Shown here: one piece after another, positions 31,912 through 64,000 of the stretch | How positions within the stretch are numbered: position 1 is the first letter of the stretch | Layout of the letters: every line of letters starts with the position of its first letter | Source of the DNA: Prostheceraeus crozeri | Taxonomy: Eukaryota > Platyhelminthes > Polycladida > Euryleptidae | Assembly: GCA_907163375.1 (NCBI GenBank) | Contig: CAJQUW010003146.1 | Span: 458,741 to 522,740 of the forward strand | Length of the DNA: 64,000 nucleotides | Direction of reading: 5' to 3' | Notes under the pieces: generated by a model | The model's input: only the letters and a program-made list of their open reading frames with translations | Databases searched by the model: none | Told to the model about the DNA's origin: nothing | Program-made: the position numbers and the translations under genes

Positions 31912-31921
31912 TGTTGAAAAA

Positions 31922-35265: not shown

Positions 35266-35382
35266 TTCTTATGAATGCTTTGCTTAAACGAGAAGACTAA
35301 GCAAACGTTTTGATGTGTCTAAAACTAACCATGATTGCCAAGCTCTCTTCTCGGTGTCACGTTACATGGAAGGTGATTACCA

Positions 35383-35673
35383 TTGGAAGGCATTACCTTT
35401 TATGATACTCATCGACAAGTTAAAATAAGTTTATCCCCTTTTCAAATGGCTCACCTCCACGATGCTTTACATATCATGCATCATCCAATGTACTATATCC
35501 TTCTAAGTGGACGTCTATTCATTATTCGACGAGATTTCATTGCTCTTCATGATCAATATGGTGTTATACATTTTACATCCTCAAGTTGGAACAAGTATAG
35601 AGAACGTATACATCTTCGCATAATGACTTACCTTCAACAAACCAACACTCATAAGCATGAATGTGACAAGTGA
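35383..35673 (+). pseudogene. PC4-like protein, C-terminal TBP part absent
   Basis: 96 residues without an ATG in frame (TTG at 35383; a TGA lies nine bases upstream; an ATG at 35366 is in another frame, so an indel or an intron is likely). VKISLSPFQMAHLHDAL and VIHFTSSSWNKYRERI resemble the GISLxPEQWxxL motif of the transcriptional cofactor PC4, possibly twice. It occupies the same place, convergent with the protease, as the PC4/TBP-like gene at 63160-64000, and aligns with its N-terminal half, but the TBP-like half is missing. Confidence 0.45.
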
Positions 35674-37530: not shown

Positions 37531-37532
37531 AT

Positions 37533-37921: not shown

Positions 37922-37962
37922 AGGTATTTATTTATTTATATTTACACAATTCAATACTTTGC

Positions 37963-39030: not shown

Positions 39031-39035
39031 CGTCT

Positions 39036-39232
39036 ATTAAGAGGGATCGTTTATTTGCCTCAAAGTATTAGACTTTTTCTCCGCTAGGGTTTGCGTTTGT
39101 GTTTGAGACCTGCTTTTGCTACTTTTTTGAGTCGTCTTGTATGAATCACTTTTACAACATGTACTTAAGCAGTTCAATGACACATGAATGTTTTGGCAAC
39201 TCTCAACATGGGATACAACATAGCTTCTTCAT
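39036..39232 (-). pseudogene. Cys-rich small ORF remnant
   Basis: From ATG 39232 the frame reads MKKLCCIPC and stops. The Polinton 3 counterpart begins MKQMCCLPC (59641). Downstream, another frame still reads Cys-Cys then a Lys/Ser-rich tail. It lies between the same two genes in both elements, so a small Cys-rich protein was probably encoded. Confidence 0.45.
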
Positions 39233-39233
39233 A

Positions 39234-39877
39234 TTAGAAGTCTGTGCTAAAATCAAATGATGGATAACGTGTTGAAAGTTTTAGTATGCGCTTCGGCAAC
39301 TTCTCGGGTGTTTTTAAAGTTTGCTTGATTCTCTTTTTAGGTCTCTCTATACTTAGCAACTTTCTCTTCCTAGGTGTAGAATCATTTTCCATTTCCTGTA
39401 AGGTATCACGTCCAAGAATTGCCTTTGGAACATTGAATTTCTTCATACTTTTTGAAAAGAACTCCCATCCTGTAGGTGTAAAGTGACGACGACGATCACG
39501 AACAGCATGATTAATTAAATGTTCCCCTCTTGAGTCCCTAATGACTGCACCATCATCACCTACCACTTCACCTCGTTGTGTGATTTTCAAGTTGGGTTCG
39601 AGACTTCGATATAAGCTCAGTGCGCGATTGCGATAGGGTTTGGGTGAACCAAGCGAAAGATAATTGCAAATTTTTCTTTCAATTGTTACATTTCTTCTAA
39701 AGTAGAACTTTGCTTTATCAAACGATCATAGGGATTTTTACTTTGTACAGCTTCTTGTTCATATTGCTGATTAAGTTGTGACATTTGATTTGCCCAAGGT
39801 TGTAGAACACTCTGCATTGTAGTCAGATGTATATATTCTTCTTATGGAATAGCAATCATTCGTTGAAAACCACTCAT
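39234..39877 (-). pseudogene. Conserved Polinton protein downstream of ATPase, broken
   Basis: Homologous to the 229-residue protein at 58950-59639. It starts at ATG 39877, overlapping the ATPase stop by four bases, reads FQRMIAIP and meets a TAA where the relative has Gln. After further breaks the frame 39590-39234 continues with RGEHLINHAV, TPTGWEFFSKSMKKFNVP and a basic tail. The RGEVV-(x)n-PPGW-F-LKKxNVP pattern is frequent in Polintons; the function is unknown. Confidence 0.7.
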
Positions 39878-40494
39878 AACAATTTGTATATGATCATGGG
39901 TTTCTCAAAGAGATGACTGCGTAAGCGATAATCCTCAGGACACTCCTGGGTAAAGTCCAAAAATAAATAATTATAAGGTTTTTCCGTAGCACCCTCAAAT
40001 ACATCAATTAAGGCTTTTAACTTGCGAGGAAGAACTTGTCGAGATAGGAATTCAACTTGACTTTTATCACTGGGATTTTTAAAGCTGATGTAGTAATGTG
40101 TGTTTAGACTTCGAGTCCGTGCTTCCTTTCCACCTGGAAAAAGATTTTGCATAATAAAAATGATAAAGCATGGTTTGTGATGAGCAGCCTTGGTAAACAT
40201 AGCAGTTACTTCTTGTGAGTTCTTACTCTCATTAAGTAAATCATCAAGAATGATAATATCATAGGGTTGAATATCAGTAGTGCTGATAATCCCCGGTTGA
40301 ACCAAGTAACCCTTACCAACCAATTCACGATGTAAATTATGTTGATAAATTCCATAGCACCAAACAACGCGATTCGGTATGCAGTCAAAATTCTCATTAC
40401 GACGCTCCAACAATTGCAGTGTTAAATGTGTCTTCCCACTATGAGAGGGTCCTACGATACACATAGTGCGATTACAGCGTAAACGGAAATCCAT
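39874..40494 (-). CDS. DNA-packaging ATPase (FtsK/A32-like)
   Basis: 206 residues, intact. Walker A GPSHSGKT (15-22), Walker B IIILDDLL (80-87), an HHKPCFIIFIMQN sensor-like strand (~107-120) and a C-terminal FLDFTQECPED. Small genome-packaging ATPases of Polintons have this size. The start ATG 40494 is equivalent to the start used in Polinton 3. It should pump the linear DNA into the capsid. Confidence 0.88.
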   Translation of the reverse strand: MDFRLRCNRTMCIVGPSHSGKTHLTLQLLERRNENFDCIPNRVVWCYGIYQHNLHRELVGKGYLVQPGIISTTDIQPYDIIILDDLLNESKNSQEVTAMFTKAAHHKPCFIIFIMQNLFPGGKEARTRSLNTHYYISFKNPSDKSQVEFLSRQVLPRKLKALIDVFEGATEKPYNYLFLDFTQECPEDYRLRSHLFEKPMIIYKLL

Positions 40495-40555
40495 GTTGAT
40501 TTTGAGAGAGAGAGAGAATACTATTGATGAAAAGTCATACCATTTAACTTAGTAT

Positions 40556-40956
40556 CTATCCATTAATGCCTTTATTCGCGAGAGCACCAGCTAATCCTCC
40601 CAAAGCAGGACCGGCAGCTGCCATGATGATAGGCGCTAAAAGTGGTAAGAAGCCACCGCGCTGTGATAATAGTTTGCGCTTTGTAGGAATTCATGTTTTG
40701 GATTGCTCAAGGTGCGAAGAACTTTACCATGCCTGGCAATTGCATTGGCTTTTTTGCTATTTAATGTCATATAACGCACTTTTCGTATTTCCGCGCATAT
40801 TTTACGAATGAAGGCATTGTTTGCCAGCTTCATTGCCTCATATCGATGAGATGGCTTTAATTTTAATAAGCGACGAAGAGTGAGACAGAATTTTTTGTTT
40901 GCATTTGATTGACACTTTTGTCTGCGCGAACGGTGAGATGAAAGACGTCTAGCCAT
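40556..40956 (-). pseudogene. Basic protein with GGFL hydrophobic tail, frame change
   Basis: N-terminal basic, helical part of ~105 residues (ATG 40956; RLLKLKPSHRYEAMKLANN). In the -1 frame the sequence continues LLSQRGGFLPLLAPIIMAAA and ends at 40556. The same two-part design, also needing a -1 shift, is at 57940-58304. In other Polintons I know one continuous protein of this form, probably a DNA-binding internal capsid protein. Confidence 0.6.
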
Positions 40957-40987
40957 TTTTACAGGTGGATGTTAGAGTGTTCTTTGC

Positions 40988-41584
40988 TTAAACACGACAG
41001 CAGCGTCGAAACATCACCGACGTAAACGCAATGAAATAGAGGAAGACATTGAGTACAGCTCTAGTAAAAAACAATACACTGAGAACAACCACAGTACCAG
41101 TGGGATAGTCAGAAGCAGATACATGTGTGGGTAGCTGTAATGTATCTTTCAGTGAGGTACTATAGTTCAATGGAAACAGTTCAGCTGTGTCGTTTACTGA
41201 TATGTTATGATTCAGACATGAACAATCTGTTTGTATGATGATGCTTGTAAAGTTTAATGCCTTTGCATCAATTGTGCTTAAGTGGAAAAGGCTTCCCATA
41301 AGCAACGTGTAGAATAAATAACTCCAAGCAAGGTAATGAAAGAATACCATGACGTAACAGTGATGAAAGTGCATTCGTAAACTGCTTTTTGGTTTATAAT
41401 TATAAGATAGCATATAGTCACCATCTTCACAGTTTGTGTGAATGATGATAGCATTACTCAAACGATGTATCATCTCTCTACAATCACTGGATGATAATAG
41501 TTTTTCCAACACAAGAATCCACTGCCTTGTATAATCATGCTTTCCCTTTTCAATGAGACGGTGATACAGTGGTGTCATAGTCAT
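40988..41584 (-). CDS. Unknown membrane protein, two transmembrane segments
   Basis: 198 residues. Segments at ~76-97 (VMVFFHYLAWSYLFYTLL) and ~164-188 (TVVVLSVLFFTRAVLNVFL) are long enough to cross a membrane. The ~65 residues between hold several N-x-S/T sites, suggesting a lumenal or surface loop. It occupies the place of the 57146-57562 gene of Polinton 3 but shows no similarity. Possible envelope or host-membrane factor. Confidence 0.5.
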   Translation of the reverse strand: MTMTPLYHRLIEKGKHDYTRQWILVLEKLLSSSDCREMIHRLSNAIIIHTNCEDGDYMLSYNYKPKSSLRMHFHHCYVMVFFHYLAWSYLFYTLLMGSLFHLSTIDAKALNFTSIIIQTDCSCLNHNISVNDTAELFPLNYSTSLKDTLQLPTHVSASDYPTGTVVVLSVLFFTRAVLNVFLYFIAFTSVMFRRCCRV

Positions 41585-41622
41585 AGATGACTGTTATAAA
41601 ATCGACAAGGATTGCATCAAAA

Positions 41623-42138
41623 TCATTTATTTACATTGACTGTTGAAACTATTTCTTGATCACAGATGGGACACAACTTAGTTTCCAAAGGTACATAGCA
41701 CGTAGAACACATAACAGAATGACAACATGGTAAAAAGAGAAGGGACCGTTCCCTTTTAAAACACTCAATGCAGTTCCGTTCACATAATAATTTAAACGTC
41801 TCTTCTTCCAATTTCTTTCTGAAGTCACTTTTATTGTTAGAGCTACTTGACAAATCAGTTGCAAATGTCACTTTTTTCTTTTTCACTCCAGATTGCACCA
41901 ATTTCATCCTCCTATTTTCACTATCACTAGATTGCAGCATAGAAAAATCCTCTATCCATCTTCGATCCAAATGATGATTCATAGCATGCTCATCTAGATC
42001 CATTAGTCTTTCAACTAAAGCGCAAACTTTAATATTTTCATTTACATTTGTAACAGTTTCTATAGCCTTCAACGAATAACCAAGCTCTCTTGCTGCAAAC
42101 CATGAAGTTGGGAAACGAATGCAAATTTTCATCTTCAA
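41623..42138 (-). CDS. UBA-RING protein, IAP-like E3 ubiquitin ligase candidate
   Basis: 171 residues. The N-terminal ~45 residues (AARELGYSLKAIETV, then ALVERLMD) look like a UBA domain as found in inhibitor-of-apoptosis proteins. The C-terminus is a RING: C123-x2-C126-x11-C138-x-H140-x3-C144-x2-C147-x8-C156-x2-C159, the IAP type. No BIR domain is present. A ubiquitin ligase acting on host or viral proteins is a reasonable inference. RING parts also occur in Polinton 3 (56357, 57559). Confidence 0.6.
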   Translation of the reverse strand: MKMKICIRFPTSWFAARELGYSLKAIETVTNVNENIKVCALVERLMDLDEHAMNHHLDRRWIEDFSMLQSSDSENRRMKLVQSGVKKKKVTFATDLSSSSNNKSDFRKKLEEETFKLLCERNCIECFKRERSLLFLPCCHSVMCSTCYVPLETKLCPICDQEIVSTVNVNK

Positions 42139-42444
42139 ATAATTTCAAATGATGATGAGTGTCAGGAAGGGACACTCAGTTGAATATGATTGATATGACT
42201 TGTACACCTTTGACAGTATTGATGACTCAGTGAAATCTAATACTTTACTTTCATTTCATCAATTTTTCACCCATCCTCTGAGTTATACGGGCTTGGAACC
42301 GTCATGAAAGCAAATGACTTTCAGGCCTCATTATGGGTAGCCTCGTAAAGGCTCATGGATCATTCACGGAAAAAGGCAATGAAGCAGTGTGCTGTGTGTA
42401 TGTGTGAGTGTGTATGTCCTCATGTTTTAAAGAAAGGATGCTCT

Positions 42445-42678
42445 TCACTCATATTTATGTTTAGTTCCAAACCATCTTCCCTCTTTTAGCATGTTGGATT
42501 GTCTTTGATGACTAACTATTGTTGCTTTCTTCACATAGTCAATCGTTTCTAGACAATCGGCGATCTTTCTTGGATCATCTGTCTTGATTGCCATGGAGTA
42601 GTACCTTTCTGACAACTCCATGATTGTGTTCTTTTCTTTCTTTTGACGAATCATTAATTCAGCTTCTGTCTCACTCAT
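42445..42678 (-). CDS. Small charged accessory protein
   Basis: 77 residues from ATG 42678, mostly one charged helix (ETEAELMIRQKKEKNTIMEL). A TATA-like CTTTATAGAAA lies ~50 bp upstream (minus strand). Closest to the right inverted repeat, so it may be an early gene. Family unknown. Confidence 0.45.
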   Translation of the reverse strand: MSETEAELMIRQKKEKNTIMELSERYYSMAIKTDDPRKIADCLETIDYVKKATIVSHQRQSNMLKEGRWFGTKHKYE

Positions 42679-42837
42679 GATGCAGGATCACTACACTGTA
42701 ACAATGCTCAGTGAAAAGTGAATTTCTATAAAGTGCTACCTCCTTATATCTTGTCGTAGGAAACCTGAGTCCTGGATGGCGAACTTTAAGACTTGTGATG
42801 TGTTTCATTAACTTTCAGACTACATTATCATTTCATA

Positions 42838-43135
42838 AACTTGTGTTTCATAAAACGTCATGATCAAACTTTCTAACTATACATCAACCTATGTTGCAGT
42901 AAAACTTTTGTACAACATGATGCACTTTCTGACTACACTCACGAATAAAACTTCGATGATCAAACTTTACTTTCACAAACGTGTGTCACGGTAAAACTAT
43001 TTGACTACACTAACGCTTACATTTTATGACATTTGTGTTTCATAAAACGTCATGATCAAACTTTCTAACTATACATCAACCTGTGTTGCAGTAAAACTTT
43101 TGTAAAACATGATATACATGTACTTTCTGACTACA
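42838..43135. repeat. ~190-bp direct repeat
   Basis: Two copies of a block with TTCATAAAACGTCATGATC and TCTAACTATACATCAACCT (at ~42848 and ~43030), joined by related degenerate units. No gene is seen. Confidence 0.75.
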
Positions 43136-43553
43136 CTCACAAGAGCTTGTTTACTAGGGAAGAGAGAAATGAGCTTGTGGTTGCGTGTGGCGCATGAATG
43201 CCCCTTCCAATTCATTCCATTCATCATTTCGTCCCCGTGATAGAGGCAAGCAGAACCCATGGCCCATTCTCGCATGTATGGCCAACTATCGGGAGACAAG
43301 TGCAATGGAGATTTTATGAGGTAACCTGTGGCAGATAGCTAAATGTCGCCCTGACGGTCAGAGTACAACGTTGAGACGAAAGGCACCCACTTAGAAACAT
43401 GACGCAGAGGTTTCACAAGGATTACCATTGCCAGCGTCCCGTGCAGTACTCATCACTACGGACTTCACCTCTGTCTCGAAAGAACGCCCACCAACAGTAA
43501 GTATGACACCAAAAATCTCCGTGACTTGCACCGTCAATGACTTGATAGCCAGA

Positions 43554-45102
43554 CATGAAAACTGGTGGAGTTATTTACAAGAGGCTGGCAGACTTTGATC
43601 AGCTTGATAGCAAGCCGTGATTCACAAGCGTTTTGCAATGGAGATGTTTAGATGCCACCCATGACAAGATAGCTAAGACTCAACCGATTGGCGTTCAAAG
43701 TGCTACGTTGAGAACTGTGTCAAATGCCCAACATGAGTTGCCCCAGCGATTTCGGTCTAAAATATGACACACTCCCTTGCCACACTTATCACTACGGCAT
43801 CATCCGCCGTCCCGAAGGAACACCCTGTCAGTGGAATATTACAGCAAAACTCTCCGTGTCATGCTCGCTTTCAGTGAAAAGTCGCTTGTAGCATGGAGAA
43901 ACTGTCTCGTACACACTTATACATGCCTTCATTGACTTCAGCAGAGTCGAAAACCCCAGAAAACCTCCAAAAGTGATGAATTTAAATTTTTCAGCATTTA
44001 GCACTACTTATGAAATTTTATAAGTAGTCTGTCACTATAGGTCTGGTCAATAGCGATCGACTCTTCTTTTAATCAAGTCAAAAGGACTTGTAGAAGCAAA
44101 GTTACAAGCCTTTAAAGTTTTGGAGTCTTTTATGGCCTGGAGACGAAGGCCATCTCCTGGCTAACCTTTAAGTCCTTTTTTTAGAACCCCCAAATTTGGA
44201 ATGTCGGATGCTATCATCAGAGCTCCGGAGTTCACCTACCCCAACCCAGTCGGGAGGAGAACTGATTTCCACAAGCAGAGACTCCACTTATATAGTTTGT
44301 GGCGATCAGCTGATGACGTAATATCCATCATCCAAAACTTTAAACACGTCTATCTCCGGTTCTAGTGCTCCGATTGACTTCAAATTTTGACAGTTACGTT
44401 TTCTCGCTCTCACCTTTCATTTAAGACATCCATCGACTCTCTACGATGACCAGAAGCCCAGTTGAAAAAACAGATCTGAAAAGATAGGATCCTAGAGAAC
44501 AAAGTGCGGTCTTGCTCCTAAAAGAAACCCGAGCTCTTCATTCACTTCCAATCCTCCGCTATTCATCGCCAAAGGTGGCCACAATTTAACATTTTCACGA
44601 AAAAATCCTTCATCATGCCGAAATATGGCCTTTCTCATCCCAAAACTACCAACACCCGCCTTTTTCTAACTCTGCCGTTTTCAGAGATTCCTACCCTTGC
44701 CTAACAGGAAAACTCTTCCTTCCTTCCTTCCTCACCCAAAATTTCACGTAGACTCCGAATCTGAACTCCAATTTCCCATCCGAACCCTCCTTCATGCCGA
44801 ATTTCGACCTTTCTGATCCCAAAACCACCAAAACCCACATTTTCTCACTCTATCCTTCCCACATTCTTACCCTTGCCGCCTTCTTTCCTAGATTCCTACC
44901 CTTGCTGGAAAACTCCATCCTTCCTTCGAGAGGGGGGTAGGGGACAGCTTCCTCCTCACGGACCCATTCCTCCCAACACATCCTTGGCCACCTCCCTTCT
45001 TCCTTCCTTCCAGAGGGGGGAGGCTGAGTCAGCATGATGACTCAGCAGCGATGACTCATCGCTGCACTGCACTGCGCTTGCTTTTGGGACGAGCGTACTA
45101 CT
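43554..45102. repeat. Right terminal inverted repeat of Polinton 2
   Basis: Reverse complement of parts of 28444-30772, with deletions relative to the left copy. It contains the same inner block (TTATTTACAAGAG), the TATA promoter region and the distal GATGAGTCATCGC block. Differences from the left copy suggest some age. Confidence 0.88.
44287..44294 (-). promoter_or_regulatory. TATA box in right inverted repeat, directed inward
   Basis: Mirror copy of 29951-29958. It would drive the leftward genes (RING, ATPase, integrase, capsid). Confidence 0.5.
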
Positions 45103-45109
45103 CATTTAC

Positions 45110-46034: not shown

Positions 46035-46121
46035 ATGATGCAGATTCTCTACACCAGGACTAATGCAAAAGTCAACAAAACGGATATCATTCGAATGACT
46101 ATGACAAGACAAATGCTTTTT
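46035..46121. repeat. ~85-bp inverted repeat partner, left
   Basis: ATGCAGATTCTCTACACCAG, then GACTAATGCAAAAGTC and onward, is repeated in inverted orientation at 49573-49657. A diverged direct copy of part of the surrounding block lies at ~49130-49260. Confidence 0.75.
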
Positions 46122-46478
46122 GGTACCCGAAGAATCTTTTCTTTTGAACCCTTTATATGAAATACAATATTGGAACCTTCCAAAGAATAGGGAATGGTAG
46201 GATCCAATCCCGAAGTTTCAGAGGACTTCATTGATTCAGCGTCAAATACAGGGTGTTAGCGATCTTCCCGCGGATTTTTGAAGTCTTTCACCTAGGTCAC
46301 AAATATTGTGTTCATCACTCAAATATCATAGATAGCTAGGCTGGCGTTGTTCGCATGGTATATATGTAGATAGATAGCTATGATGAGATAAAATTTAAAA
46401 ATCATTGATATTTAAAAATCAAACTCTTCCTCCACATAACCTTAATCTCATCACTTTGAGTAAGACTATTGCAAGTGC

Positions 46479-46721
46479 ATGTTGACTGTTGAAATGAATT
46501 ACAAGGACTTGACGAACGAAGAAATTGCTTCTATAGTGTCTTTTTCCGTTACTTATAACTGCGAAAAGGCTAGGCGATTGTTTGAGGAGAAATTTCACAA
46601 GACCCCACCACCAGCAAGGACATTATTGGATTGGAAGAAGAGATTCATGGAGACATTATCCGTTGTTCCACGCAAGCCTATTGGAGACCACAGTGCCAGA
46701 AACCGTAGAAACCAGCTATAA
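46479..46721 (+). pseudogene. Inverted copy of mariner transposase N-terminus
   Basis: 80 codons, of which the first ~74 equal the N-terminus of the 46810-47847 transposase (MLTVEMNYKDLTNEEIAS). The rest is unrelated. It could encode a DNA-binding fragment that competes with the transposase, but this is speculation. Confidence 0.8.
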
Positions 46722-46809
46722 CGATGTGTCGTTACTAATGACAAAAACACTCTTTTACCATAGCAAAAAGGTATTATATTACTTAACAAAGCACATTTTC
46801 GTACTGATA

Positions 46810-47847
46810 TCATAAAAACTGCTCAAAATGCCCTCCATTCTGCTCAGCGCAGAGCTGACATCGCCGAAGAAAATTGTCATATGCGCGGCTGATGGTCGAT
46901 AGCTCGATACTTTCCAATAGATTGATCAGTTTGGATCGAAGTTCTCTTATTGTCCTTGGTCTTGGATGTTTATAAAGTTTATTGCGTATATCTCCCCACA
47001 ACCACGAATCATTCACAGACAGGTCAGGGCTTCTTGGTGGCCACGATATTGGACCTGAACGTCCAATCCATCGATTTGGAAGGTTAGCATTCAGGCTATT
47101 GCGTACTATTAACGCGAAATGGGAAGGTGCGCCGTCTTGTTGATAGAGTTCAGTCCGATTGCCTCTTTGTGTCAACAACGGGATAACTTTCTCCATCACA
47201 ATGCTAAGATATTTCTCAGAGTCCATTGTTCCATCAATTATTTGATAAGACACACCATGAATAGGCGATAACATCGCCCAGCACGTAATTCCGACAGACT
47301 TCATAAAGTGTTCTTCAACAGCATGGGGATTATCATGAGCGTAGATGAACTGGTTATGTCTGTTAACTTGACCGTTGCGTATGAAGTTCGAATCGGTTCT
47401 TTGTCTTTCGAGGATAAATCGACAAAATTGAAGTCGATTAATCTCGTCACTGTCTTTCAATTCCTGGACAGATGTAAGCTTCCAAGGTTTCATACCATCT
47501 TCTTTCAATACCTTGTTCACCGTAAACAGGGATACTCCCACCTCTTGTGCAACTTTTCGTTGAGACGTTCTTGGATCATCACCAACTGCATTCAGGACTG
47601 CATTTCTGTTCTCCTCCGATACTCTTCTGGCACTGTGGTCTCCAATAGGCTTGCGTGGAACAACGGATAATGTCTCCATGAATCTCTTCTTCCAATCCAA
47701 TAATGTCCTTGCTGGTGGTGGGGTCTTGTGAAATTTCTCCTCAAACAATCGCCTAGCCTTTTCGCAGTTATAAGTAACGGAAAAAGACACTATAGAAGCA
47801 ATTTCTTCGTTCGTCAAGTCCTTGTAATTCATTTCAACAGTCAACAT
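46810..47847 (-). CDS. Mariner-like transposase, apparently intact
   Basis: 345 residues: N-terminal helix-turn-helix region (YNCEKARRLFEEKF), a second HTH (TSQRKVAQEVGVSLFTV), then the DDE/D catalytic domain with QRTDSNFIRNGQVNRHN (~164), YQQDGAPSHF (~248) and WPPRSPDLSVNDSWLWG (~284). This is the IS630/Tc1/mariner type widespread in invertebrates. No stop or frameshift, so it may be active. It cuts the element out and reinserts it at TA. Confidence 0.88.
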   Translation of the reverse strand: MLTVEMNYKDLTNEEIASIVSFSVTYNCEKARRLFEEKFHKTPPPARTLLDWKKRFMETLSVVPRKPIGDHSARRVSEENRNAVLNAVGDDPRTSQRKVAQEVGVSLFTVNKVLKEDGMKPWKLTSVQELKDSDEINRLQFCRFILERQRTDSNFIRNGQVNRHNQFIYAHDNPHAVEEHFMKSVGITCWAMLSPIHGVSYQIIDGTMDSEKYLSIVMEKVIPLLTQRGNRTELYQQDGAPSHFALIVRNSLNANLPNRWIGRSGPISWPPRSPDLSVNDSWLWGDIRNKLYKHPRPRTIRELRSKLINLLESIELSTISRAYDNFLRRCQLCAEQNGGHFEQFL

Positions 47848-48069
47848 GCACTTGCAATAGTCTTACTCAAAGTGATGAGATTAAGGTTATGTGGAGGAAG
47901 AGTTTGATTTTTAAATATCAATGATTTTTAAATTTTATCTCATCATAGCTATCTATCTACATATATACCATGCGAACAACGCCAGCCTAGCTATCTATGA
48001 TATTATGAGTGACCTAGATGAAAGACTTCAAAAATCCGCGGGAAGATCGCTAACACCCTGTATATGTGT

Positions 48070-49570
48070 GCTCTCTACGGCAAAAGAGATTTCCCAGGAA
48101 CATTGGATGAGCTAAGATGTAATTTCTTTAAGACGAAGAAGTCTGATATACGATTCTCGTCGCCGACTTATTTGGATGAAAGCAGCATTGCCGTCACTGT
48201 CCCTACCACTGCCGACAGATTACGGACGGAAAATCGATAATTGAAGTCTTCAAGCAATAATGATGACTAAAACTCCTAAACCCAACTTTCCATTGACCAG
48301 ATGCAACTGTCAGACGGAGAAGTGTGGATTTCGATGTTCAGGTAGGAAAGTAATGCTCGCTCCCTCACGTGCACCCTAGCCTAAAATCGAGATGGATGTG
48401 AACATGACTACCTAGTCTCTTGATGTAATTGAAAGGTATCAGTCATATAAAAATCTGTGCTTCTTAACTTCGGACTGATCACTTCAACCTGACCTACACA
48501 TTGACTTTCATTGACTCAACACATCTCGTCGAGAAGCAATCAAATGCTAGTGTTATTCTTGTTTCCTGATATCCAGTTTGGTTTCACTCTAAATTTGATA
48601 CACGTAATAATTAAGTTAATTTGATCACTCAGCTTCATTGTAGAAACATATTTTTCTGAGTTATTTTTTCAGAGCTTTCATGCATGTTCTGAGTTTGTTA
48701 AACAATCATGTCCTTTTATTATCCGAATTTGTTATAATTGATATATAGGCTAAGTGATTCATGGTTTGAGATTTTTATTATCAAAGTTTGTGATAATATC
48801 CGTCCTCCTATTATCCAAGATTGTTTTACGTGCAAGCTAATTGCTATCTCAAGTTCATTTGTATCAGTTTGTCTTCAGTTAGGAATTGCTTTCAAATAGT
48901 GTATTTGCATGAAATAAATTTGTATAAATCACATTTTTTATTTTTCATGAAATTCAATTTCAAAATTGAATGGACTAATCAAGGATTATTGACAATAACA
49001 AAGCGACCTATTATTAGCTTTCAATAATTTCAGATATCCAATTTAGTTGCAACCTCAGCTTGTCAGCTGATTCAGCCTCGACTGTTAAATAGATGCATGT
49101 GTAAGTATTTCTCTAATGTAGAGCTTCATCTCCCATGACCTTTTGACTTCTAGCTCTGCACTCATTAACCATGTGATAAAACTTTTTTAGCAAAAGATTA
49201 GCCTTGTCATTCTCTTTCGAATGATGACCACCATTTCTTGACTTTCTTATTGATATTGATGTCAATAATCAATATGACAAATTGCATTTTCCACAACAAT
49301 TTTCAGAATTTTTGGTATATGTGAATTTAGCAAGGCTGATGAGAAAAACGAATTCATCGGTGACTTTCCTTATACCCTCAAAAACTGACACATATAAGAC
49401 AGTCAAAACGGACAGTAGTTGCATCAACTCTGCGGCATTGGTTTACCCAGTGTAGGGGTGCAGATGAGCATTCGTGCATTAAATTTTTTGAGCGTTGGCA
49501 TCTCGCCATGACCTTTTGACCTCTTACTCTGCACCCAATGACCCTATGACAAAACTTTTGGTAGGCCTAT
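48070..49570. other. Unique-looking non-coding stretch with direct repeats
   Basis: The blocks ATGACCTTTTGACTTCTAG...CTCTGCACTC (~49137) and ATGACCTTTTGACCTCTTA...CTCTGCACCC (~49510) are diverged direct repeats ~370 bp apart. No gene is supported. Confidence 0.5.
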
Positions 49571-49572
49571 CA

Positions 49573-49657
49573 AAAAGCATTTGTCTTGTCATAGTCATTC
49601 GAATGATATCCGTTTTGTTGACTTTTGCATTAGTCCTGGTGTAGAGAATCTGCATCA
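49573..49657. repeat. ~85-bp inverted repeat partner, right
   Basis: Reverse complement of 46035-46121. Together the pair brackets a 3.6-kb segment with the mariner inside. Could be the ends of an older non-autonomous element. Confidence 0.75.
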
Positions 49658-50063
49658 TTAGTTTCACAGCTCCGTGTTTCATGTTAATTTTCCAAAAAGT
49701 CAAAATTCAAAAAATCGACAAAAAATTCAGCTTCGCAAGAGAAGATCCAGAACAGACATCCTAGAATCGATGTTTCTATAAATGCGTCTAACCAGCAAGA
49801 AAACACCAAAAGCAAAAGTACGTCCTGACCTGAGTACCTCAACCTCTTGTCTAGAGAGGACAATAGATGACAAGGATATCACCAGTCTAGACTCTGACCG
49901 AGGTTCCACCTCTGTACTCCAGTCTTTAATTTGAGATAACTTCTGATATAAATGCCTCATCACCTACATTTTTCACGCCGAATAAAATATAAATGAGATA
50001 CGTCACCTAGGTGGCTGCATCTCAAGGTGGAATATCCTTTGTTCAAACATCAACACTGATAGT

Positions 50064-50399
50064 ATGAATCATGAGAAGCAAAAGGCGTGGCTGGATATAG
50101 AGAAGGAAGTAGCATGTGTGAGCACGAGAACATCAAGACGTTGGCAAGATCTCAGAGGAAAGATACAAGTGGAAAGATCGAAGGTCAAGCCGAAGGCTCA
50201 GGAGATCAATCGCTTGCGGGCCAACACCGGGAATCAAGTCCCAATCCCTGAATTGTCGGACTTTGAAACAAAGGTGGCTTCCCTATTAACTCCGGAAGAG
50301 CTGAATGGTATTGAGGGGTATGAACCACTGGGCGGCATCCATCGCCAACCGGAGGGCGGTTCAGCACCAGCACCTTTAGTACCAGCAGAACGCAGTTAA
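50064..50399 (+). CDS. Harbinger Myb/SANT-like DNA-binding protein, short form
   Basis: 111 residues with KQKAWLDIEKEVACVS and RRWQDLRGKI, the trihelix (Myb/SANT-like) pattern of the accessory protein in PIF/Harbinger elements. The C-terminus with LTPEELNGIEGYEPLGGIH is also typical. It converges with the transposase, overlapping it by 24 bp. A full-length version is usually longer and some N-terminal sequence may be missing. Confidence 0.7.
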   Translation: MNHEKQKAWLDIEKEVACVSTRTSRRWQDLRGKIQVERSKVKPKAQEINRLRANTGNQVPIPELSDFETKVASLLTPEELNGIEGYEPLGGIHRQPEGGSAPAPLVPAERS

Positions 50400-51323
50400 A
50401 CGCAGAGGGCCACCGCTCTTGTCTATGCAGCGAAATAGGCTTTTCAGGACACCGAATGATCGTTCCACACAATTTCGAGTTCTCCGATGTGCCCGGTTGT
50501 AGTTAAGTGTAGAAGTGTCACTAGAGGCGGGATGGGGAACAAGAGTGAGTAAATTATTGGAGAGCCCGTATCCGCTGTCTCCAATAAGGTACCCCTGAGG
50601 AATGTGATGCACCATGAAAGCTGCTCTCAGTTGGGATTCCCGATACACGGCAGCATCTTGAGTAGTTCCAGGAAAACTCGCATCGACAAATGTGAAGCGG
50701 AGATCAGGCCTGCATGCGAACATAGCATTAATTGTGTGATACCCCTTCCTGCAAACATAGACATGTTCGTTAACTGTTGGACTTTTGATGGGTATGAGAC
50801 ATCCATCTACACAGCCGATGACGTTTGGGAATCCAGCTATAGCATGGAACTCGTTGGATAAAGTTCTGCACTCTTCATGGGTTGTTGGTAATATGATGAG
50901 ATCCTTGTACGCTAATTGGATAACTTTCGTCACCGATTGAATGACTCGTGAAACAATGCCAAGCCCAACTTCATACTGTTCGCTTAGATTTCGAAATGAA
51001 GAACCATGACCGTAGAATTTCATTGCTATAATGACCTGCTCAATTGTGGACAATCGCTTCCCACGTAACTTTGTGTTTTCATAGTTCTGATATATGAAGG
51101 GTTGTAGATCATTGGCAATTTTGGTCATTTCTACGCCATTGAACCGGTAAACGGAGCGTATTGTCTCTTCCGACAGATGGCCTATCTCTAAAGGAGAATA
51201 TCTTTCTCTATAGTATCTGGGCGAGTGATATTCCAGCACAACTTCGGTCATATTCGCCATTGCAAACTTTGTTGAACGATTCAATGAATAATGATGCTCT
51301 AAAGACTGCCTGATGACTGTCAC
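50376..51323 (-). CDS. PIF/Harbinger transposase (HARBI1-like nuclease)
   Basis: 315 residues. Catalytic Asp in GCVDGCLIPI (~172), Asp in DASFPGTTQDAAVYRES (~214) and Glu in NCVERSFGVLKSLFRC (~289). GDSGYGLSNNLLT (~245) is another family block. The upstream HTH region is present (LSTIEQVIIAMKFYGHGSSFRNLSE). Looks complete or nearly so. Works with the Myb-like partner to move the element. I could not find convincing terminal repeats. Confidence 0.85.
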   Translation of the reverse strand: MTVIRQSLEHHYSLNRSTKFAMANMTEVVLEYHSPRYYRERYSPLEIGHLSEETIRSVYRFNGVEMTKIANDLQPFIYQNYENTKLRGKRLSTIEQVIIAMKFYGHGSSFRNLSEQYEVGLGIVSRVIQSVTKVIQLAYKDLIILPTTHEECRTLSNEFHAIAGFPNVIGCVDGCLIPIKSPTVNEHVYVCRKGYHTINAMFACRPDLRFTFVDASFPGTTQDAAVYRESQLRAAFMVHHIPQGYLIGDSGYGLSNNLLTLVPHPASSDTSTLNYNRAHRRTRNCVERSFGVLKSLFRCIDKSGGPLRLTAFCWY

Positions 51324-51367
51324 TAGATCGATGTGTTTATGATGCCTTTGTGATTGGTCTTCTGAAC

Positions 51368-51460
51368 GAATTTAGAGATGCCTCATTGAGGCATCATTAA
51401 GAGAGCGATTTATGGAACGAAATTCGCTAATGATGCCTCATTGAGGGCGTCATTAACTAA
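51368..51460. repeat. Palindromic TGATGCCTCAATGAGGCATCA block, two copies
   Basis: GATGCCTCATTGAGGCATCATT and a second version GATGCCTCATTGAGGGCGTC lie ~60 bp apart, followed by GAGCGAT. Lies just upstream of the Harbinger transposase and might be part of its end. Confidence 0.55.
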
Positions 51461-55139: not shown

Positions 55140-55320
55140 GCACCGATCTTCCAATTTTGGTTCTAGTGATTGTAGAAAGTCGTGCAATAGCTCGTTTGAA
55201 AGCTAAGAGTGAGACAAATTCACTGAAAGAAACGGCTTGTTCATATCTGTCTTTGTTTAGATGTGAGACGCCATTTAAGATTTGGGAGATTGGCGAAAAA
55301 CGACAGAGTTAGAATTTCCC
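55140..55320. repeat. Block shared with the inverted repeat of Polinton 2
   Basis: Close match to 29350-29520 (GTCGTGCAATAGCTCGTTTG, GAAACGGCTTGTTCATATC), the best direct evidence that Polintons 2 and 3 share an ancestor. It includes no coding sequence that I can support. Confidence 0.8.
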
Positions 55321-55399
55321 AAGAAACAGCTCCAGCGGGCGAATGAAGGCTCGGATTGGTAAACGGAGGCCAGATTTGGAATCAGCTTGATGTTATTGT

Positions 55400-57145: not shown

Positions 57146-57562
57146 GTGATCATGTCTTTCTCAAACGACTGCGGAACATTACATTTTCATAGGCAAAGTT
57201 TAAAAGGAGCTGTTCAAGATTATGTGATAAATTTTCATAAAGATGAGACCGACATCGAAGCAGTGGTCAATGATGCTAGCACTCTATTTCTAGAGTTAAT
57301 GAATACATTCTCTGATAGCATTGTCATGGCGCGATTAGTTGCGAAAATTAAGTTTAGTCATTTTGGAAAGGAGGAGGTGGAAAGTCGCTCTTTCCATTTT
57401 GCTTCTTATTCAATGGAAGTGGTAGATCACCCCGAAGAATTTTTTAAAAGACATATGATAAAAATTGCTGAACGTCTTAACGCATTTAACCATCATGGCA
57501 GCAGTCTAGTGATTGAAGCGATTTCAGATATTCACATTCAACTTTCTATAAAGAAAAATTGA
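57146..57562 (+). CDS. Unknown Polinton 3 protein
   Basis: 138 residues. IKFSHFGKEEVESRSFHFA and the late block LVIEAISDIHIQLS resemble a small domain known upstream of many Polinton proteins (F-HPSL-PI...F, then a helix, then L-I-V-V). Function unknown. The stop overlaps the next start by four bases (57559-57562). Confidence 0.45.
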   Translation: MIMSFSNDCGTLHFHRQSLKGAVQDYVINFHKDETDIEAVVNDASTLFLELMNTFSDSIVMARLVAKIKFSHFGKEEVESRSFHFASYSMEVVDHPEEFFKRHMIKIAERLNAFNHHGSSLVIEAISDIHIQLSIKKN

Positions 57563-57888
57563 AAATGCAGTGGTACTTGATTGTAGCACAACTGGTTTTC
57601 GAGCTATGCCTGCTCACTCTCGAAGTATATTCCTTCTGTACATGCGTCTATTATTTAGAAAAGGCTAGCAAATTCATATCTTCAAAAAGACTTGCTATAG
57701 ACATCAGTAACGGTGAAACTATGTGTTGTGATGTATGTAAGCGAAAGGATGGAAATGAAAAGCGCATCTTCAAGAGATGTAAGCATGCTTTTTGTCAACG
57801 CTGTTTCATACGTAATTGCATTCAACTTCGCAAATGTAACGACTGTGATATTGCTCATTTCGAGTGTCACTTATGCCGCAATAGTTAG
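57559..57888 (+). CDS. Membrane-anchored RING protein
   Basis: 109 residues. A hydrophobic segment at ~5-33 (WYLIVAQLVFELCLLTLEVY) would insert in a membrane. The RING follows: C57-x2-C60-x13-C74-x-H76-x2-C79-x2-C82-x10-C93-x2-C96. A small transmembrane RING protein fits a viral-type ubiquitin ligase that downregulates membrane proteins, but this is inference. The start overlaps the preceding stop. Confidence 0.6.
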   Translation: MKMQWYLIVAQLVFELCLLTLEVYSFCTCVYYLEKASKFISSKRLAIDISNGETMCCDVCKRKDGNEKRIFKRCKHAFCQRCFIRNCIQLRKCNDCDIAHFECHLCRNS

Positions 57889-57939: not shown

Positions 57940-58304
57940 ATGGCGAAACGTAAAATGACGAAACGTAAAAGTCAAAAGTCTTCAAAGTTTTCTTCAGCCA
58001 TTCAAGCTCTCCAACGAATGAAAGCAAATCAGCGATACAGTGCTATACGACATGCTAACGATAAATTCATTTGTGAAATTGTTTCTCATGTCAGAAAGTT
58101 GAGGACGAAGAAATTAGCACCAAAACAACGAAAGTTACTTAAGCGATATGCTACGAAATTGCGTTTCATCTCCAATCCTAAAGTCACCCTTCAAAAAAAG
58201 AGGAAACTCTAACACAAAAGGGCGGTTTCCTTTCAGCAATACTTCCAATGATAGCTCCTGTCGTGGTTAACCTATTGGGTAATATCTTTGGCTCTAAACG
58301 TTAA
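57940..58304 (+). pseudogene. Basic protein with GGFL hydrophobic tail, -1 frame change
   Basis: 90 basic residues (MAKRKMTKRKSQKSS...) with ALQRMKANQRYSAIRHAND, then stop at 58212. In the -1 frame the sequence continues GGFLSAILPMIAPVVVNLLG to 58304. The run A AAA AAG at 58191-58197, read in the zero-frame phase, is a classic slippery heptamer. A plain indel is equally possible. Same design as 40556-40956. Confidence 0.6.
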
Positions 58305-58335
58305 TTATGCAAATGTTGAATCTCAAAATATTATA

Positions 58336-58953
58336 ATGGATTTCAGACTTCAATGTGATAAAGTTCTGACTGTATCAGGTCCATCCCATGCAGGTAAAAC
58401 TGTTTTCACGCTGAATTTATTGGATAAAAGAAGGGAGTTGTTTAAGGAACCTATCAATCGAGTGATTTGGTGTTATGGTATTTATCAACCGTCGCTGTTT
58501 CAGGAATTGCAAAGTCGCAACTTTATTCGACATGAAGGAATTATTCCAGTGGATAAACTTCAGTCTAATGATGTTGTTGTATTGGATGATTTATTAAAAG
58601 AAAGTAAGAATTCCAAAGATGTTACAGATATGTTCACTCGCGCAGCACATCATAAAAGGTGCTTTATCATCTATATCACACAAAATTTGTTTCCTGATGG
58701 AAAAGAAGCTCGTACACGAAACCTGAATACACACTATTATGCTATTTTCAAGAATCCGCGAGATAAAAGTCAATTTGAAATTTTAGCGCGACAAGTTGCA
58801 CCCAGAGGATCAAAAGCCTTAATTGAAATTTTTCAAGCAGCTACTGAAAAACCACACGGTTACTTATTCATTGACTTTACGCAAGAGTGTCCGGAAGAAT
58901 TTAGATTTCGAAGTGATATTTTGAAAACTCCCATGATTATCTACAAACTATGA
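58336..58953 (+). CDS. DNA-packaging ATPase (FtsK/A32-like)
   Basis: From ATG 58336 (equivalent to the start in Polinton 2; the frame is open from 58288). Walker A GPSHAGKT, Walker B VVVLDDLL, and HHKRCFIIYITQN; the C-terminus is EKPHGYLFIDFTQECPEEF. Intact. The next start overlaps the stop (ATGA), as in Polinton 2. Confidence 0.88.
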   Translation: MDFRLQCDKVLTVSGPSHAGKTVFTLNLLDKRRELFKEPINRVIWCYGIYQPSLFQELQSRNFIRHEGIIPVDKLQSNDVVVLDDLLKESKNSKDVTDMFTRAAHHKRCFIIYITQNLFPDGKEARTRNLNTHYYAIFKNPRDKSQFEILARQVAPRGSKALIEIFQAATEKPHGYLFIDFTQECPEEFRFRSDILKTPMIIYKL

Positions 58954-59856: not shown

Positions 59857-60895
59857 GCGTTTGAAGTCAATCTATTATGATGTAAAACATCCAGCAGGAT
59901 TTGCATCTATCAAGAAATTGTCAAAAGCGAGTGGTCTTCCACAATCACAAGTGAAACGATGGTTAAAGGGTCAGGCTACCTATACACTCCACAAACAAGC
60001 GAAAAAGAAGTACCGTACCCGCCATTATATTGTTCATGACATTGATGAACAGTGGTAAGCAGATTTGTGTGATGTCGCCTCCATTTCAAAACATAACTCA
60101 GGAAATAATTTTATTTTAACCGTCATTGATGTTTTCTCGCGTTATGCGTGGGCTCAACCTTTAAAAACTAAAGAAGGGAAAGGAGTAGCAAAAGCATTCC
60201 AAACAATTTTTCGAGAAGGTCGCATTCCAAAAAGAATTCAGAGTGATCAAGGAAAAGAGTTTGAAAATCAGCATGTGAGAAGATTATTTGAGAGGCATGA
60301 CATTGAGTTGTTTAGTGTAAAGAGTGCTTATAAAGCTGCACTCGTTGAACGTTTTAATCGCACATTAAAAAATCGCTTGTGGCGACATTTTACTGCCAAC
60401 TTGACACAAAATTGGGCAAAGGTTCTACAAGATACACTCCATGCCTACAATCACTCTATCCATCGTTCTATTGGACTCAGACCAGTAGATGTAAATGCTG
60501 ACAATGTAGATAAAGTGCGCGAATCATTCCAACGTAAACGCACTCATGTGAAAATTGGTGATAAAGTTCGTATCTCAAAAGTGAAAAGTGTTTTTGCTAA
60601 AGGGTACCTTCCGAATTGGACAGAGGAGGTATTTCCAGTATCAAGGATTAATCAAAAAGACTCTCCAACCACCTACAAGTTGAAAGATTACGATAACGAA
60701 GAAATTGAGGGTAGCTTTTACCGCGATGAGATTGAGGTAGTCACTGAAAGTGAAACATATTTGGTAGAGAAAATCATTCGATGTAAAAAACGACAAGGTG
60801 AAGAATGGTGTCTTGTTAAATGGACTGGTTATCCTTCAAGTATGAACTCTTGGATGCGTCGTGCCGACATCTTTCATCTAAGTGATCGACAGTGA
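59819..60895 (+). pseudogene. Polinton integrase with chromodomain, one stop
   Basis: The best start is ATG 59819 (MRRRKKSQSSSTERLKSIYY). HTH-like KKLSKASGLPQSQVKRWLK, DDE core with ADLCDV, SDQGKEFEN and LVERFNRTLK, SH3-like KIGDKVRISKVK, chromodomain YLVEKIIR then WCLVKWTGYP. An in-frame TAA (60056-60058) sits where Polinton 2 has the CAA-Gln of DEQWQADL, so a single base change split the gene at its first catalytic Asp region. Otherwise intact. Confidence 0.9.
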
Positions 60896-60936: not shown

Positions 60937-61391
60937 ATGAATCCAACTGCCTCATTTTATTCACGACCCTCCTATGTAAGTGGTGGAGGACAAATTTACA
61001 TCGGCGCTCGCCGCCAACGTGGAGGTAGCATACTTGGTGCACTGAAATCTGTTGTAGCACCTCTCATATCCAATGTCGGAAGATCTTTAAAACGAAATGT
61101 TTTAAGTAATGCCGTTGGCTTTGCTGGTGATGTTGCTTGTGATCTTTCCAGAGGTAGAACTTTTAAGAGCAGTTTGTTGAATCGTGGGAAGGAACGCGGT
61201 TTAAAAACATTGAAGCAGACCTTTGCAGGTGTTACTCAAGGAAAGAAATCGCCTAAACGAATGAATAAATGAAGAAGGAAACATCGCGGAGCTGGTAAGG
61301 TGCGATCTTCAGTCAAAAGGCATTTACGCAAACGTCGCAGAGGCTCTAATCATTCATCAGGCGCTAAACGACGACGCTGCCATAACTTCTA
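60937..61391 (+). pseudogene. Minor capsid / core protein (PX-like), one stop
   Basis: 111 residues to TGA 61270-61272: SRPSYVSGGGQIYIGARRQ, GGSILGALKSVVAPLI, then GKERGLKTLKQ. The same frame continues through the stop for 39 more codons of very basic sequence (RRKHRGAGKVRSS...) and ends at 61391, matching the basic tail of the Polinton 2 relative. One nonsense mutation is the simplest reading (CGA to TGA). Confidence 0.7.
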
Positions 61392-61394
61392 ATC

Positions 61395-62672
61395 ATGGAG
61401 TGTAAAACTTCCGGTTTTTGTTTGTTTGATCAACAAGCCATACAGACAGATATTCTTAGTTCAAGTATTGTAGATTATCATCCTCGAACAGCTGAGAATG
61501 CTGGCCCCATTGAATTTGTTATTCCTGGTGGTAGTGATGACTACATAGATTTGAGTTATGCGATGATTGATTTGAGGTTTAGAATTCAGCAAGCAGATGG
61601 AACTGCTATTGACGATACACATAAAGTTGGACTGAACAATTTACCATTGACTACATTACTTCGCGATGTTTCTCTAACGATTGGAGAGCAGCAGGTGGAA
61701 GGTGGTCAAAGCGATTATCCCTATAAATCATATTTCAATCATGTATCACAGTTTCATCCAGCAGCACAAAAAAGTCATATGGAAGCCATGGGATGGTACA
61801 GAGATGAAGCAGGAAAATTTGATGTTGAAAGAAACAGTGGCTTTGTAAAGCGATCTGCTATGATTAAAGATAGTAAAGTATGTCAGCTATATGGTCCGCT
61901 GAATTTAGACTTCTTTAGACAGTCAAAGTTTTTACTATGTAATACCATCATGCGACTCAAGCTGACATTGAATAAGCCTGAATTTGCGCTGAATGCATTT
62001 GCTAAAGTTGACAATTTTAGAATTCATGTGGAAGATATTGCACTTTACATTCGTCGAGTAGTACCGAATCCAAGTGTCATTAGAGCACATGCTGAAGATC
62101 TTAACCGCCAAAATGCCATTTACCCCGTTCAGCATACAAAGCTTCTCACCTTTACAATTCCGAAAGATCAAAAGAGTTTCATGAAAGATGGCCTCTTTCC
62201 ATCGGAAGCACCGAAGCTCCTCATGGTGGCAATGGTTGAAAAAGATGCATTTAATGGTAATATAAAGAAGAATCCTTTCAATTTTAAACACAATCAGTTA
62301 AGTGAAATTGCTTTGCGTGTAAATGGTGTGAATCATCCTGGTCCACCCTACAAACCAGATTTTGCTGCGGATCAATTTATGCGCAGTTATGTTGATTTTA
62401 TGGATGTCTTTGGCTTTTACAATACGGATGACACCAACGGACTGACTATGAAAGAGTTTAAGAGTGGATATACTATTTATGCATTTGATTTGACTGCTGA
62501 CAGCGATATAAGTGCACCCTATCGTCAAGCGAACGTGCCTCATAATATTCGTTTGGATTTGACGTTCAAAAGAACACTACCTGAGACGATCAATGTATTA
62601 ATTTATGCAGTCTTCGATTCAAATATTGAAATTACAAAGTATCGTGACGTGATTCTTCAGTATAATCGTTAA
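61395..62672 (+). CDS. Major capsid protein, double jelly-roll type
   Basis: 425 residues, intact. The start MECKTSGFCLFDQQ, VEGGQSDYPYKSYF (~103), YGPLNLDFFRQSKFLL (~166), VVPNPSVIR and DDTNGLTMKEFKSGYTIYAFD (~350) are shared with the broken Polinton 2 gene. The family is known as the Polinton capsid protein (also annotated as F54H12.2-like). Forms the icosahedral shell. The stop overlaps the protease start by one base. Confidence 0.9.
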   Translation: MECKTSGFCLFDQQAIQTDILSSSIVDYHPRTAENAGPIEFVIPGGSDDYIDLSYAMIDLRFRIQQADGTAIDDTHKVGLNNLPLTTLLRDVSLTIGEQQVEGGQSDYPYKSYFNHVSQFHPAAQKSHMEAMGWYRDEAGKFDVERNSGFVKRSAMIKDSKVCQLYGPLNLDFFRQSKFLLCNTIMRLKLTLNKPEFALNAFAKVDNFRIHVEDIALYIRRVVPNPSVIRAHAEDLNRQNAIYPVQHTKLLTFTIPKDQKSFMKDGLFPSEAPKLLMVAMVEKDAFNGNIKKNPFNFKHNQLSEIALRVNGVNHPGPPYKPDFAADQFMRSYVDFMDVFGFYNTDDTNGLTMKEFKSGYTIYAFDLTADSDISAPYRQANVPHNIRLDLTFKRTLPETINVLIYAVFDSNIEITKYRDVILQYNR

Positions 62673-63133
62673 TGAGTTGGTTGACTGCTGACGATATGAA
62701 GACTAAAGTGCAGCGTAATGCAGATGAAGCGACGTTGAAAGCTTTCGATAATGTCTATTCGCTCGATACCTTACCACCTGCAGTAAATCACTATCCCATC
62801 TTTATTGTGCTAAACACTCATTCGCAGAATTTAGGCGGTGAGCATTGGAAAGCGATCTTTATTGGAGAAGACCGACGTGGTGAACTATTTGACTCTCTTG
62901 CTCAACCTCCAAATATACCAACACAGCAGTGGTTGAGAAAACATACGCGTCAATATCAGCGAAATGAACGCATACTACAACATCCACTGTCATCAACGTG
63001 TGGTGCTTTTGTACTGTACTTCATCTTAAAACGTTTACATGTATCTCGATTTGTATCTGTCATTCAAAACTTTTCATGTAATCCATCCTCTAATGAAAAA
63101 ATGATTTGTAAGTTCTATCATGATTTGAAATAA
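62672..63133 (+). CDS. Adenain-like cysteine protease
   Basis: 153 residues, intact: His in GGEHWKAIF, Asp in LFDSLAQ, Gln and Cys in LQHPLSSTCGAFVLYF. Same length and placement as the protease of Polinton 2. Converges with the TBP-like gene, 26 bp away. Confidence 0.88.
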   Translation: MSWLTADDMKTKVQRNADEATLKAFDNVYSLDTLPPAVNHYPIFIVLNTHSQNLGGEHWKAIFIGEDRRGELFDSLAQPPNIPTQQWLRKHTRQYQRNERILQHPLSSTCGAFVLYFILKRLHVSRFVSVIQNFSCNPSSNEKMICKFYHDLK

Positions 63134-63159: not shown

Positions 63160-64000
63160 TTATTTTACAATCCGCTGGGTACGTACATACTCGATGAGAT
63201 AGTCTGGGATCACATTTGCTTGTACATGAGATTTTAGTCCAGTAATGATCACTTTACTATTATGAAAGATTGCCACATGTACAGGTAACCAACAACTAAT
63301 GAGAGCTGCAGGAAAAAGTTCGGGTTCATAACACAAATTTTAACTGCTGGTACGAATCTTCAAAAATGATACACTTTCACTCAATTGAGTAGAGATCACC
63401 ATATTGTCCACAGTCAGATTCGACATCACACACCTCTCCCTCTTCCATATCCGACGTAGTAGTCTTTGTAGCTCTAAGCGCATTGACTGCGCCGATGAAT
63501 GAGAAAGGGCGCCGAGAATCTGTACAGTTCCATTTGGGAAGAGTTGAAGATTCCGTGAATTGTTCATCTTCACCACTAACATTTGAGGTCGGCCCGGGTA
63601 ATACTTGCTGTTTGGAAGGTGTTGGTGTAATGTTGTGAGATCGATTTTGGTGTAGAGTCTGAAGCGACGGAGAATGTTGACGTTGGTGTAGCGATGGCGC
63701 TTCATGATGAAAAAATGAGTAAATTGAGCGATGTACCTTCCTTTGATACTTTCCCAACTACCTTGATGAAATGTGAAGTTAGTATGAAGTTGGGAATGAT
63801 AGAGTCGAATTCGCCGATTGTTGACGCGCAGCCAGATGCGATTTCCAATACGTGAATGTCTTTTCATATAGAAGTATTTCAAATCCTTCATGATATGATG
63901 TAGAGATTGAAAATGACGATAAGATAAAGCAAACTCTCTTCTCACATTTCCAGTTGAATCTTTGAAATAGACGTTTCGATCATGATCCGTTTCAATACGT
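63160..64000 (-). pseudogene. PC4-like and TATA-binding-protein-like gene, one stop, cut by window
   Basis: Frame open from the window end to TAA 63340-63342. N-terminal part: FKDSTGNVRREFALSYRHFQ resembles PC4 (p15). Then a first TBP-like repeat: KIDLTTLHQHLPNSKYYPGR, MLVVKMNNSRNLQLF, NGTVQILGALS, and the linker with NLTVDNMVISTQL. After the stop the same frame continues for ~59 codons with CYEPELFPAALI and HNSKVIITGLKS, the second TBP repeat (YEPELFPG-I, SGKVVLTGAK in eukaryotic TBP), and ends at 63160. Repeat spacing and YEPELFP are strong evidence. A viral transcription initiation factor is likely. The in-frame TAA may be decay. Its start lies beyond the window. Confidence 0.7.

Follow-up and report, generated by a model that had tools for sequence, protein, structure and literature searches.

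A remodelled TBP-like gene in a flatworm Polinton and its putative overlap with the tail of a PUR-like gene

In a 64,000-nucleotide stretch of contig CAJQUW010003146.1 of the flatworm Prostheceraeus crozeri (the window), we found a Polinton that carries a TATA-binding protein (TBP)-like gene on its minus strand, with the tail of an upstream gene for a predicted PUR-like protein apparently read in another frame over its first repeat. On balance we favour, if narrowly, the view that a Polinton lineage possesses a two-gene transcription module, in which TBP would serve as an initiation factor recruiting host RNA polymerase II (Pol II) and the overlapping PUR-like protein as its cofactor. To our knowledge, no core initiation factor was previously known in Polintons, and the transcription of their genes is hardly understood.

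Results

Both TBP repeats share one minus-strand frame and are separated by a TAA at 63340-63342, as an earlier sequence-only reading of this region had stated; the open reading frames (ORFs) and their family matches bear this out. The repeat-1 ORF (63343-63999) matched PF00352 in Pfam with E 6.2e-10 (39.2 bits, cut-off 22.9) and the 59-residue repeat-2 ORF (63163-63339) with E 4.1e-4 (20.6 bits, just below the cut-off); these matches far exceed chance. Sequence comparison with the PDB returned archaeal TBPs (best E 1.1e-4). With the first ORF as query, nine proteins were retrieved, five TBP-like and four PUR-like. The window TBP aligned over nearly its full length with the relatives P0001, P0002 and P0004, at 76, 68 and 60% identity respectively, and the uninterrupted relatives P0001 and P0009 matched PF00352 in two stretches each (E 2e-20 and 1e-21), so that the profile match over two repeats which the sequence-only reading anticipated was obtained.

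The window copy is broken twice, by the stop between the TBP repeats and by a frame break in the PUR-like gene. Either the insertion has decayed or, with lower probability, the assembly is in error. An altered genetic code appears an unlikely explanation of the in-frame stop, since five of five TBP relatives have no stop there and the standard code leaves long ORFs nearby uninterrupted.

A TBP profile search found 416 proteins, of which 120 were analysed; all residue counts below refer to these. PF00352 was annotated (precomputed) in all 120, which share 32-98% pairwise identity (median 46%) and form 25 clusters at 60% identity. Residue equivalents come from aligning the family profile with TBPs of archaea and eukaryotes, using the residue roles and numbering of yeast TBP. 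The equivalents of F116, N159, V161, F207 and T215 were kept in 120/120 relatives, that of F190 in 119/120 and that of N69 in 102 of the 103 ungapped ones. Glutamate stood in the first stirrup in 116 relatives (aspartate in the other 4) and in the second stirrup in all 120; these stirrup glutamates correspond to the TFIIB-contact residues. Repeat 1 was altered at three positions: the F99 equivalent was proline (115 of 118 ungapped relatives), the V122 equivalent glutamine (120/120), and the T124 equivalent leucine, methionine or phenylalanine (120/120). Three of the four intercalating phenylalanines were kept, with F99 replaced by proline, and for this reason we regard the protein as a TBP homologue and not as a canonical TATA-binding TBP. 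The sequences keep the TFIIB contact and one half of the DNA-binding surface, the other half being changed but fixed; this pattern suggests a promoter factor of altered specificity that would work with host TFIIB and Pol II. A stirrup leucine, found in 106/120 relatives and in microsporidian TBP, where the archaeal TBPs compared have glutamine, hints that the Polinton TBP may be of eukaryotic origin. The Polinton context of the TBP was observed for the window copy only, and scans of viral contigs and genome contigs yielded no confirmed locus for the relatives; these probably belong to Polintons as well, since they share the PUR-like partner.

For the upstream protein a tandem PUR domain is predicted, together with a tail that ends in acidic residues and is predicted to be disordered. 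The tandem PUR-repeat fold was found in the predicted structure of the relative P0130; an earlier AlphaFold model of four sequences had been too uncertain (pLDDT 39). In sequence searches, these proteins matched no PUR family in Pfam and no PDB sequence at E<=10, and had no detectable similarity to Pur-alpha, MRP1/2, Whirly or PC4. Foldseek against the PDB and BFVD gave no match at E<=0.001, the best BFVD match being an unnamed protein with E 0.0033. Because a PUR sequence match is absent, we use 'PUR-like' for the fold and do not class the protein as a PUR-alpha member. The sequence-only reading had likened this part to the coactivator PC4; membership of the PC4 family was rejected by sequence, as PF02229 was matched by none of 16 members up to E 1 nor by the window pieces in Pfam. 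Its proposal that TBP is joined to the upstream domain holds in part. The upstream stretch is real, conserved and joined to TBP in the window copy, where the frame break makes it appear fused, but in relatives it is a separate protein: in P0003, P0005 and P0006 the upstream frame continues in another frame and not into TBP, and with a separate PUR-like ORF in 14/14 long relatives a single fused PUR-TBP protein was rejected.

To judge by its sequence, the overlap of the PUR-like tail with TBP repeat 1 is genuine coding in both frames, each of which is conserved across divergent relatives; the window tail frame and P0003 share 97.6% identity over 124 aa. The contrary view, that the tail frame is untranslated and open only through TBP conservation and codon bias, appears very improbable to us. 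When the TBP stretch was recoded with random synonymous codons at the codon use of the element, the tail frame contained 9.5 stops on average and was open in 0 of 4000 codings; none is seen in the real frame. Among 14 PUR-like proteins (91 pairs) tail identity averaged 0.61 (range 0.49-0.81), with 0.52 for the PUR-like domain, and in the 23 pairs with domains less than 45% identical the tails still averaged 0.57 (minimum 0.52). Tails simulated from P0001, P0002 and P0004 (pairs 64-75% identical) reached mean identities of only 0.28-0.32 (highest run 0.45), and those simulated from identical TBPs 0.41-0.44, in a simulation that assumes saturated synonymous sites and with the TBPs of the 14 elements known only indirectly. 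Single runs with identical TBPs did attain 0.57-0.62, which speaks for an untranslated tail; the C-terminal 116 residues, however, are equal in length in 14/14 PUR-like proteins.

Codon compatibility points the same way. All 14 PUR-like C-termini fitted P0001, P0002 or P0004 best among the 120 TBPs, in one register on TBP when N-terminal length was allowed for. The best-fitting TBP left 13-27 misfits per 107-128 positions; other TBPs with 96-98 compared positions left 43-47 (top six TBPs for each tail, unshuffled tails). None of the PUR-like tails could be matched exactly to a TBP of its own, the best pair having 13 misfits of 109. Conversely, 28/28 TBP ORF extensions fitted the PUR-like C-terminal end in one frame and register, with columns from 60 on scanned; they comprised all 22 of the 113 anchored ORFs whose extension had 25 residues or more, and six shorter ones that were chosen. 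Their Z against shuffles was 2.1-12.0, five being <=3.0, and P0021 was tied with the other frame.

That the TBP gene is encoded by a Polinton, as had been proposed, is supported for the window copy by its neighbours on the plus strand (Table 1). The Polinton set of integrase, ATPase, protease and capsid genes is present; the integrase match is strong, the ATPase and protease matches are weak but syntenic, and the capsid gene is recognised by synteny only. The TBP and protease genes are convergent. A second Polinton on the opposite strand has the same gene order, with 59% identity for the ATPase-like ORF (39880-40521), 62% for the integrase, 41-47% for the capsid candidate (reading frames at 36261-37536) and 41% for the protease (35791-36252). 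No family was found for the capsid candidate in Pfam or PHROGs, and its naming leans partly on what we take to be a capsid-like sequence style. Because the TBP-bearing element continues past 64,000, neither its right end nor its DNA polymerase is visible. At 55148-55377 it matches a terminal repeat of the second Polinton (29350-29581) with 84% identity.

Table 1. Coordinates of the TBP-like and PUR-like genes and of their Polinton neighbours in the window
Feature	Coordinates	Strand	Remarks
TBP-like gene	63160..63705	-	ATG 63705-63703, repeat 1, in-frame stop 63340-63342 between repeats 1 and 2, repeat 2, final stop 63160-63162; interrupted, inactive as read
PUR-like domain	63758..64000	-	5' end past the window; frame break between domain and tail; fold predicted from relative P0130
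PUR-like tail frame	63377..63757	-	126 codons before the stop; overlaps TBP repeat 1 in another frame, with about 109 of the codons over the TBP ORF
Protease gene, adenovirus/Ulp1-type	62666..63133	+	PF02902 E 0.0011; 19.3 bits, short of the cut-off of 20.7
Probable capsid gene	61386..62672	+	named by position and synteny; no family match
Integrase with chromodomain	60059..60895	+	PF00665 E 3.2e-10, PF00385 E 4.3e-7
Packaging-ATPase-like ORF	58255..58953	+	weak AAA/Pox_A32 matches; PHROG ATPase E 0.0072
PUR-like gene, second Polinton	35377..35673	+	profile E 0.012, same gene order; without tail and without TBP

Of the two genes the second Polinton has the PUR-like one only. This gene converges on that of the protease and ends near where the overlap would start. 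By profile its relationship to the first is weak; gene position supports it. A short PUR-like form recurs in the relative P0137 (110 aa), found with a profile that already included the window copy. In the simplest account, TBP would have been captured beside an older PUR-like gene, whose frame was then extended over TBP; the alternative is that the second Polinton lost TBP and tail, in place of a late gain in the first.

The sequence-only reading had invoked TATA boxes in the element promoters in support of an element-specific initiation factor. A TBP homologue with TFIIB-contact residues would suit such a factor; the TATA boxes were not borne out. TATAWA occurred upstream of ORFs in 1/9 regions of the TBP-bearing element and 0/6 of the second Polinton (shuffle mean 3.1 of 15) and is not enriched, in a test that used 15 chosen ORFs with the first ATG as start, many regions overlapping the preceding ORF, and mononucleotide shuffles. 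No word was shared among the upstream regions of these 15 ORFs. The missing enrichment fits a non-TATA target and equally a decoy or a non-promoter role. Overall, the earlier interpretation is supported in part: it stands for TBP, while PC4 family membership by sequence, fusion beyond the window copy and TATA enrichment are not borne out.

Discussion

If the favoured transcription module exists, TBP would bind element promoters through its canonical repeat 2 and its remodelled repeat 1, and since repeat 1 is remodelled the target is probably not a consensus TATA box. The conserved stirrup would bind host TFIIB, by which host Pol II would be recruited; we know of no RNA polymerase carried by Polintons. 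The PUR-like protein could help open or hold the promoter, a role proposed because its fold is shared with single-strand-binding proteins, while the acidic tail could serve for contacts with basal factors or with TBP. The overlapping frame might be started by leaky scanning, from an internal promoter or through a frameshift. In a bolder form, which we put forward tentatively and would rate somewhat short of even, a widespread Polinton lineage uses the remodelled TBP and the acidic-tailed PUR-like cofactor to reprogram host Pol II to non-TATA element promoters.

Other roles have to be weighed. The element's TBP might act as a decoy, drawing TFIIB (or TFIIA or TAFs) away from host TBP and so interfering with host transcription; the DNA half-site of repeat 1 would then have been free to decay. 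The persistence of the stirrup glutamates while repeat 1 lost three DNA-contact positions agrees with this, as does the lack of TATAWA enrichment. Yet hardly any variation is seen at the repeat-2 DNA contacts or at the equivalents of N69 and F116, and the altered repeat-1 positions are nearly fixed (proline, glutamine, leucine), which is unexpected for a freely decaying site; we consider the decoy unlikely, though it is the strongest of the rivals. Somewhat less likely still is a DNA-bending factor acting at the termini or in packaging or replication, with the PUR-like partner covering the single strands of protein-primed replication. Polintons replicate via protein-primed intermediates, the DNA-binding residues are conserved and single-strand-binding proteins share the PUR fold, but such a role gives no reason for the conservation of the TFIIB-contact glutamates. 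That the gene is a captured host TBP fragment or pseudogene, present in the element by chance, is the least credible reading of all: the doubly broken window copy invites it, and it is largely contradicted by the uninterrupted relatives, by the 120 proteins in 25 clusters, and by the PUR-like neighbour, whose frame and register were the same in 28/28 tested cases.

Like eukaryotic and archaeal TBPs (PF00352), the Polinton TBP has two repeats, the repeat-2 DNA contacts and the TFIIB stirrup glutamates; it differs in lacking the F99, V122 and T124 equivalents, in being encoded by a Polinton and in overlapping another gene. Pur-alpha, MRP1/2, Whirly and PC4 likewise differ from the PUR-like protein, whose predicted-disordered tail is coded over TBP. 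In the available parts of PMC12085832, PMC11464507 and PMC10132985, TBP is also encoded by DNA viruses, namely giant viruses and mirusviruses; one mirusvirus has a genome of 431.5 kb, far larger than a Polinton, two giant viruses also encode TFIIB, and these parts do not mention an overlapping PUR-like partner. CpV-BQ1 is suggested, in the part seen of PMC12085832, to redirect RNA polymerase by its own TBP and TFIIB, which is a published precedent for a virus TBP redirecting a polymerase. The poxvirus factors VETF and VITF-3 are viral TBP-fold promoter factors with altered DNA contacts as well, but they partner the viral polymerase and, unlike the Polinton TBP, have minimal sequence conservation (PMC12917281, available part).

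Viral TBPs as such are already known; a TBP in a Polinton and its overlap with a PUR-like gene would be new. The genomes of the giant viruses that encode a TBP are also far larger than Polintons. The known Polinton/Maverick gene sets share integrase, ATPase, protease and capsid with the element described here, and the words TATA and transcription are absent from the main text of the three sources searched (PMC4028283, PMC8097293, PMC4642659). Among the papers listed from the open-access literature, which leaves most subscription papers, the first Polinton papers included, outside its scope, none reporting a Polinton TBP was found. The sequence-only reading was likewise aware of TBP-like genes in giant viruses and of none described in Polintons. 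The TBPs in the parts seen of PMC10675990, PMC11464507, PMC12085832, PMC4602308 and PMC10132985 are those of giant viruses or mirusvirus-like elements, and TBP in PMC7786948 stands in a mammalian microRNA context.

If true, this would be the first core initiation factor known to us in Polintons, and a mobile element would carry an overprinted gene pair that is both long and conserved. Polintons are frequently put close to the root from which many eukaryotic DNA viruses derive. An element TBP that keeps its TFIIB contact while half of its DNA contacts are changed would make promoter choice directly testable, and virus-like mobile elements may themselves steer the host transcription machinery. 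In the TBP/PUR-like overlap a new protein tail would have arisen by overprinting, in a clear-cut example, with the sister Polinton in the window representing a state that has neither TBP nor tail. Gene finders may retain just one of two overlapping frames, so pairs of this kind could go unnoticed elsewhere.

Other elements in the window

The second Polinton (28442-45105) is flanked by matching inverted stretches, within 28442-30720 and 43593-45105; these terminal stretches are about 1.5-2.3 kb long, their inner part being 97-98% and their outer part 80% identical. It gave no polymerase by tblastn with that of the third element as query, and has a RING-finger ORF at 41626-42144 (PF13920 E 1.1e-9); a cysteine-rich, RING-looking ORF without Pfam support lies at 57517-57888 in the TBP-bearing Polinton. 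The third, Polinton-like element (6859-18010) is AT-rich (24-30% GC) and has a family B polymerase, a double-jelly-roll capsid domain and an ORF combining a phospholipase-A2-like with an integrase domain.

A near-identical 2.2 kb inverted repeat (1-2203 / 3049-5251) and a 1.6 kb direct repeat (2218-3807 / 5046-6635), with reverse transcriptase ORFs, occupy 1-6635 and are either real or an assembly effect. An ORF at 20929-22134 with weak reverse transcriptase (E 0.014) and GIY-YIG (E 0.039) matches is possibly Penelope-like. Within 46035-49658 a Tc1-like transposase ORF adjoins inverted repeats of about 450 bases (96%) and 90 bases (99%), and a Harbinger-type DDE transposase ORF is located at 50376-51371 (PF13359 E 2.7e-26).
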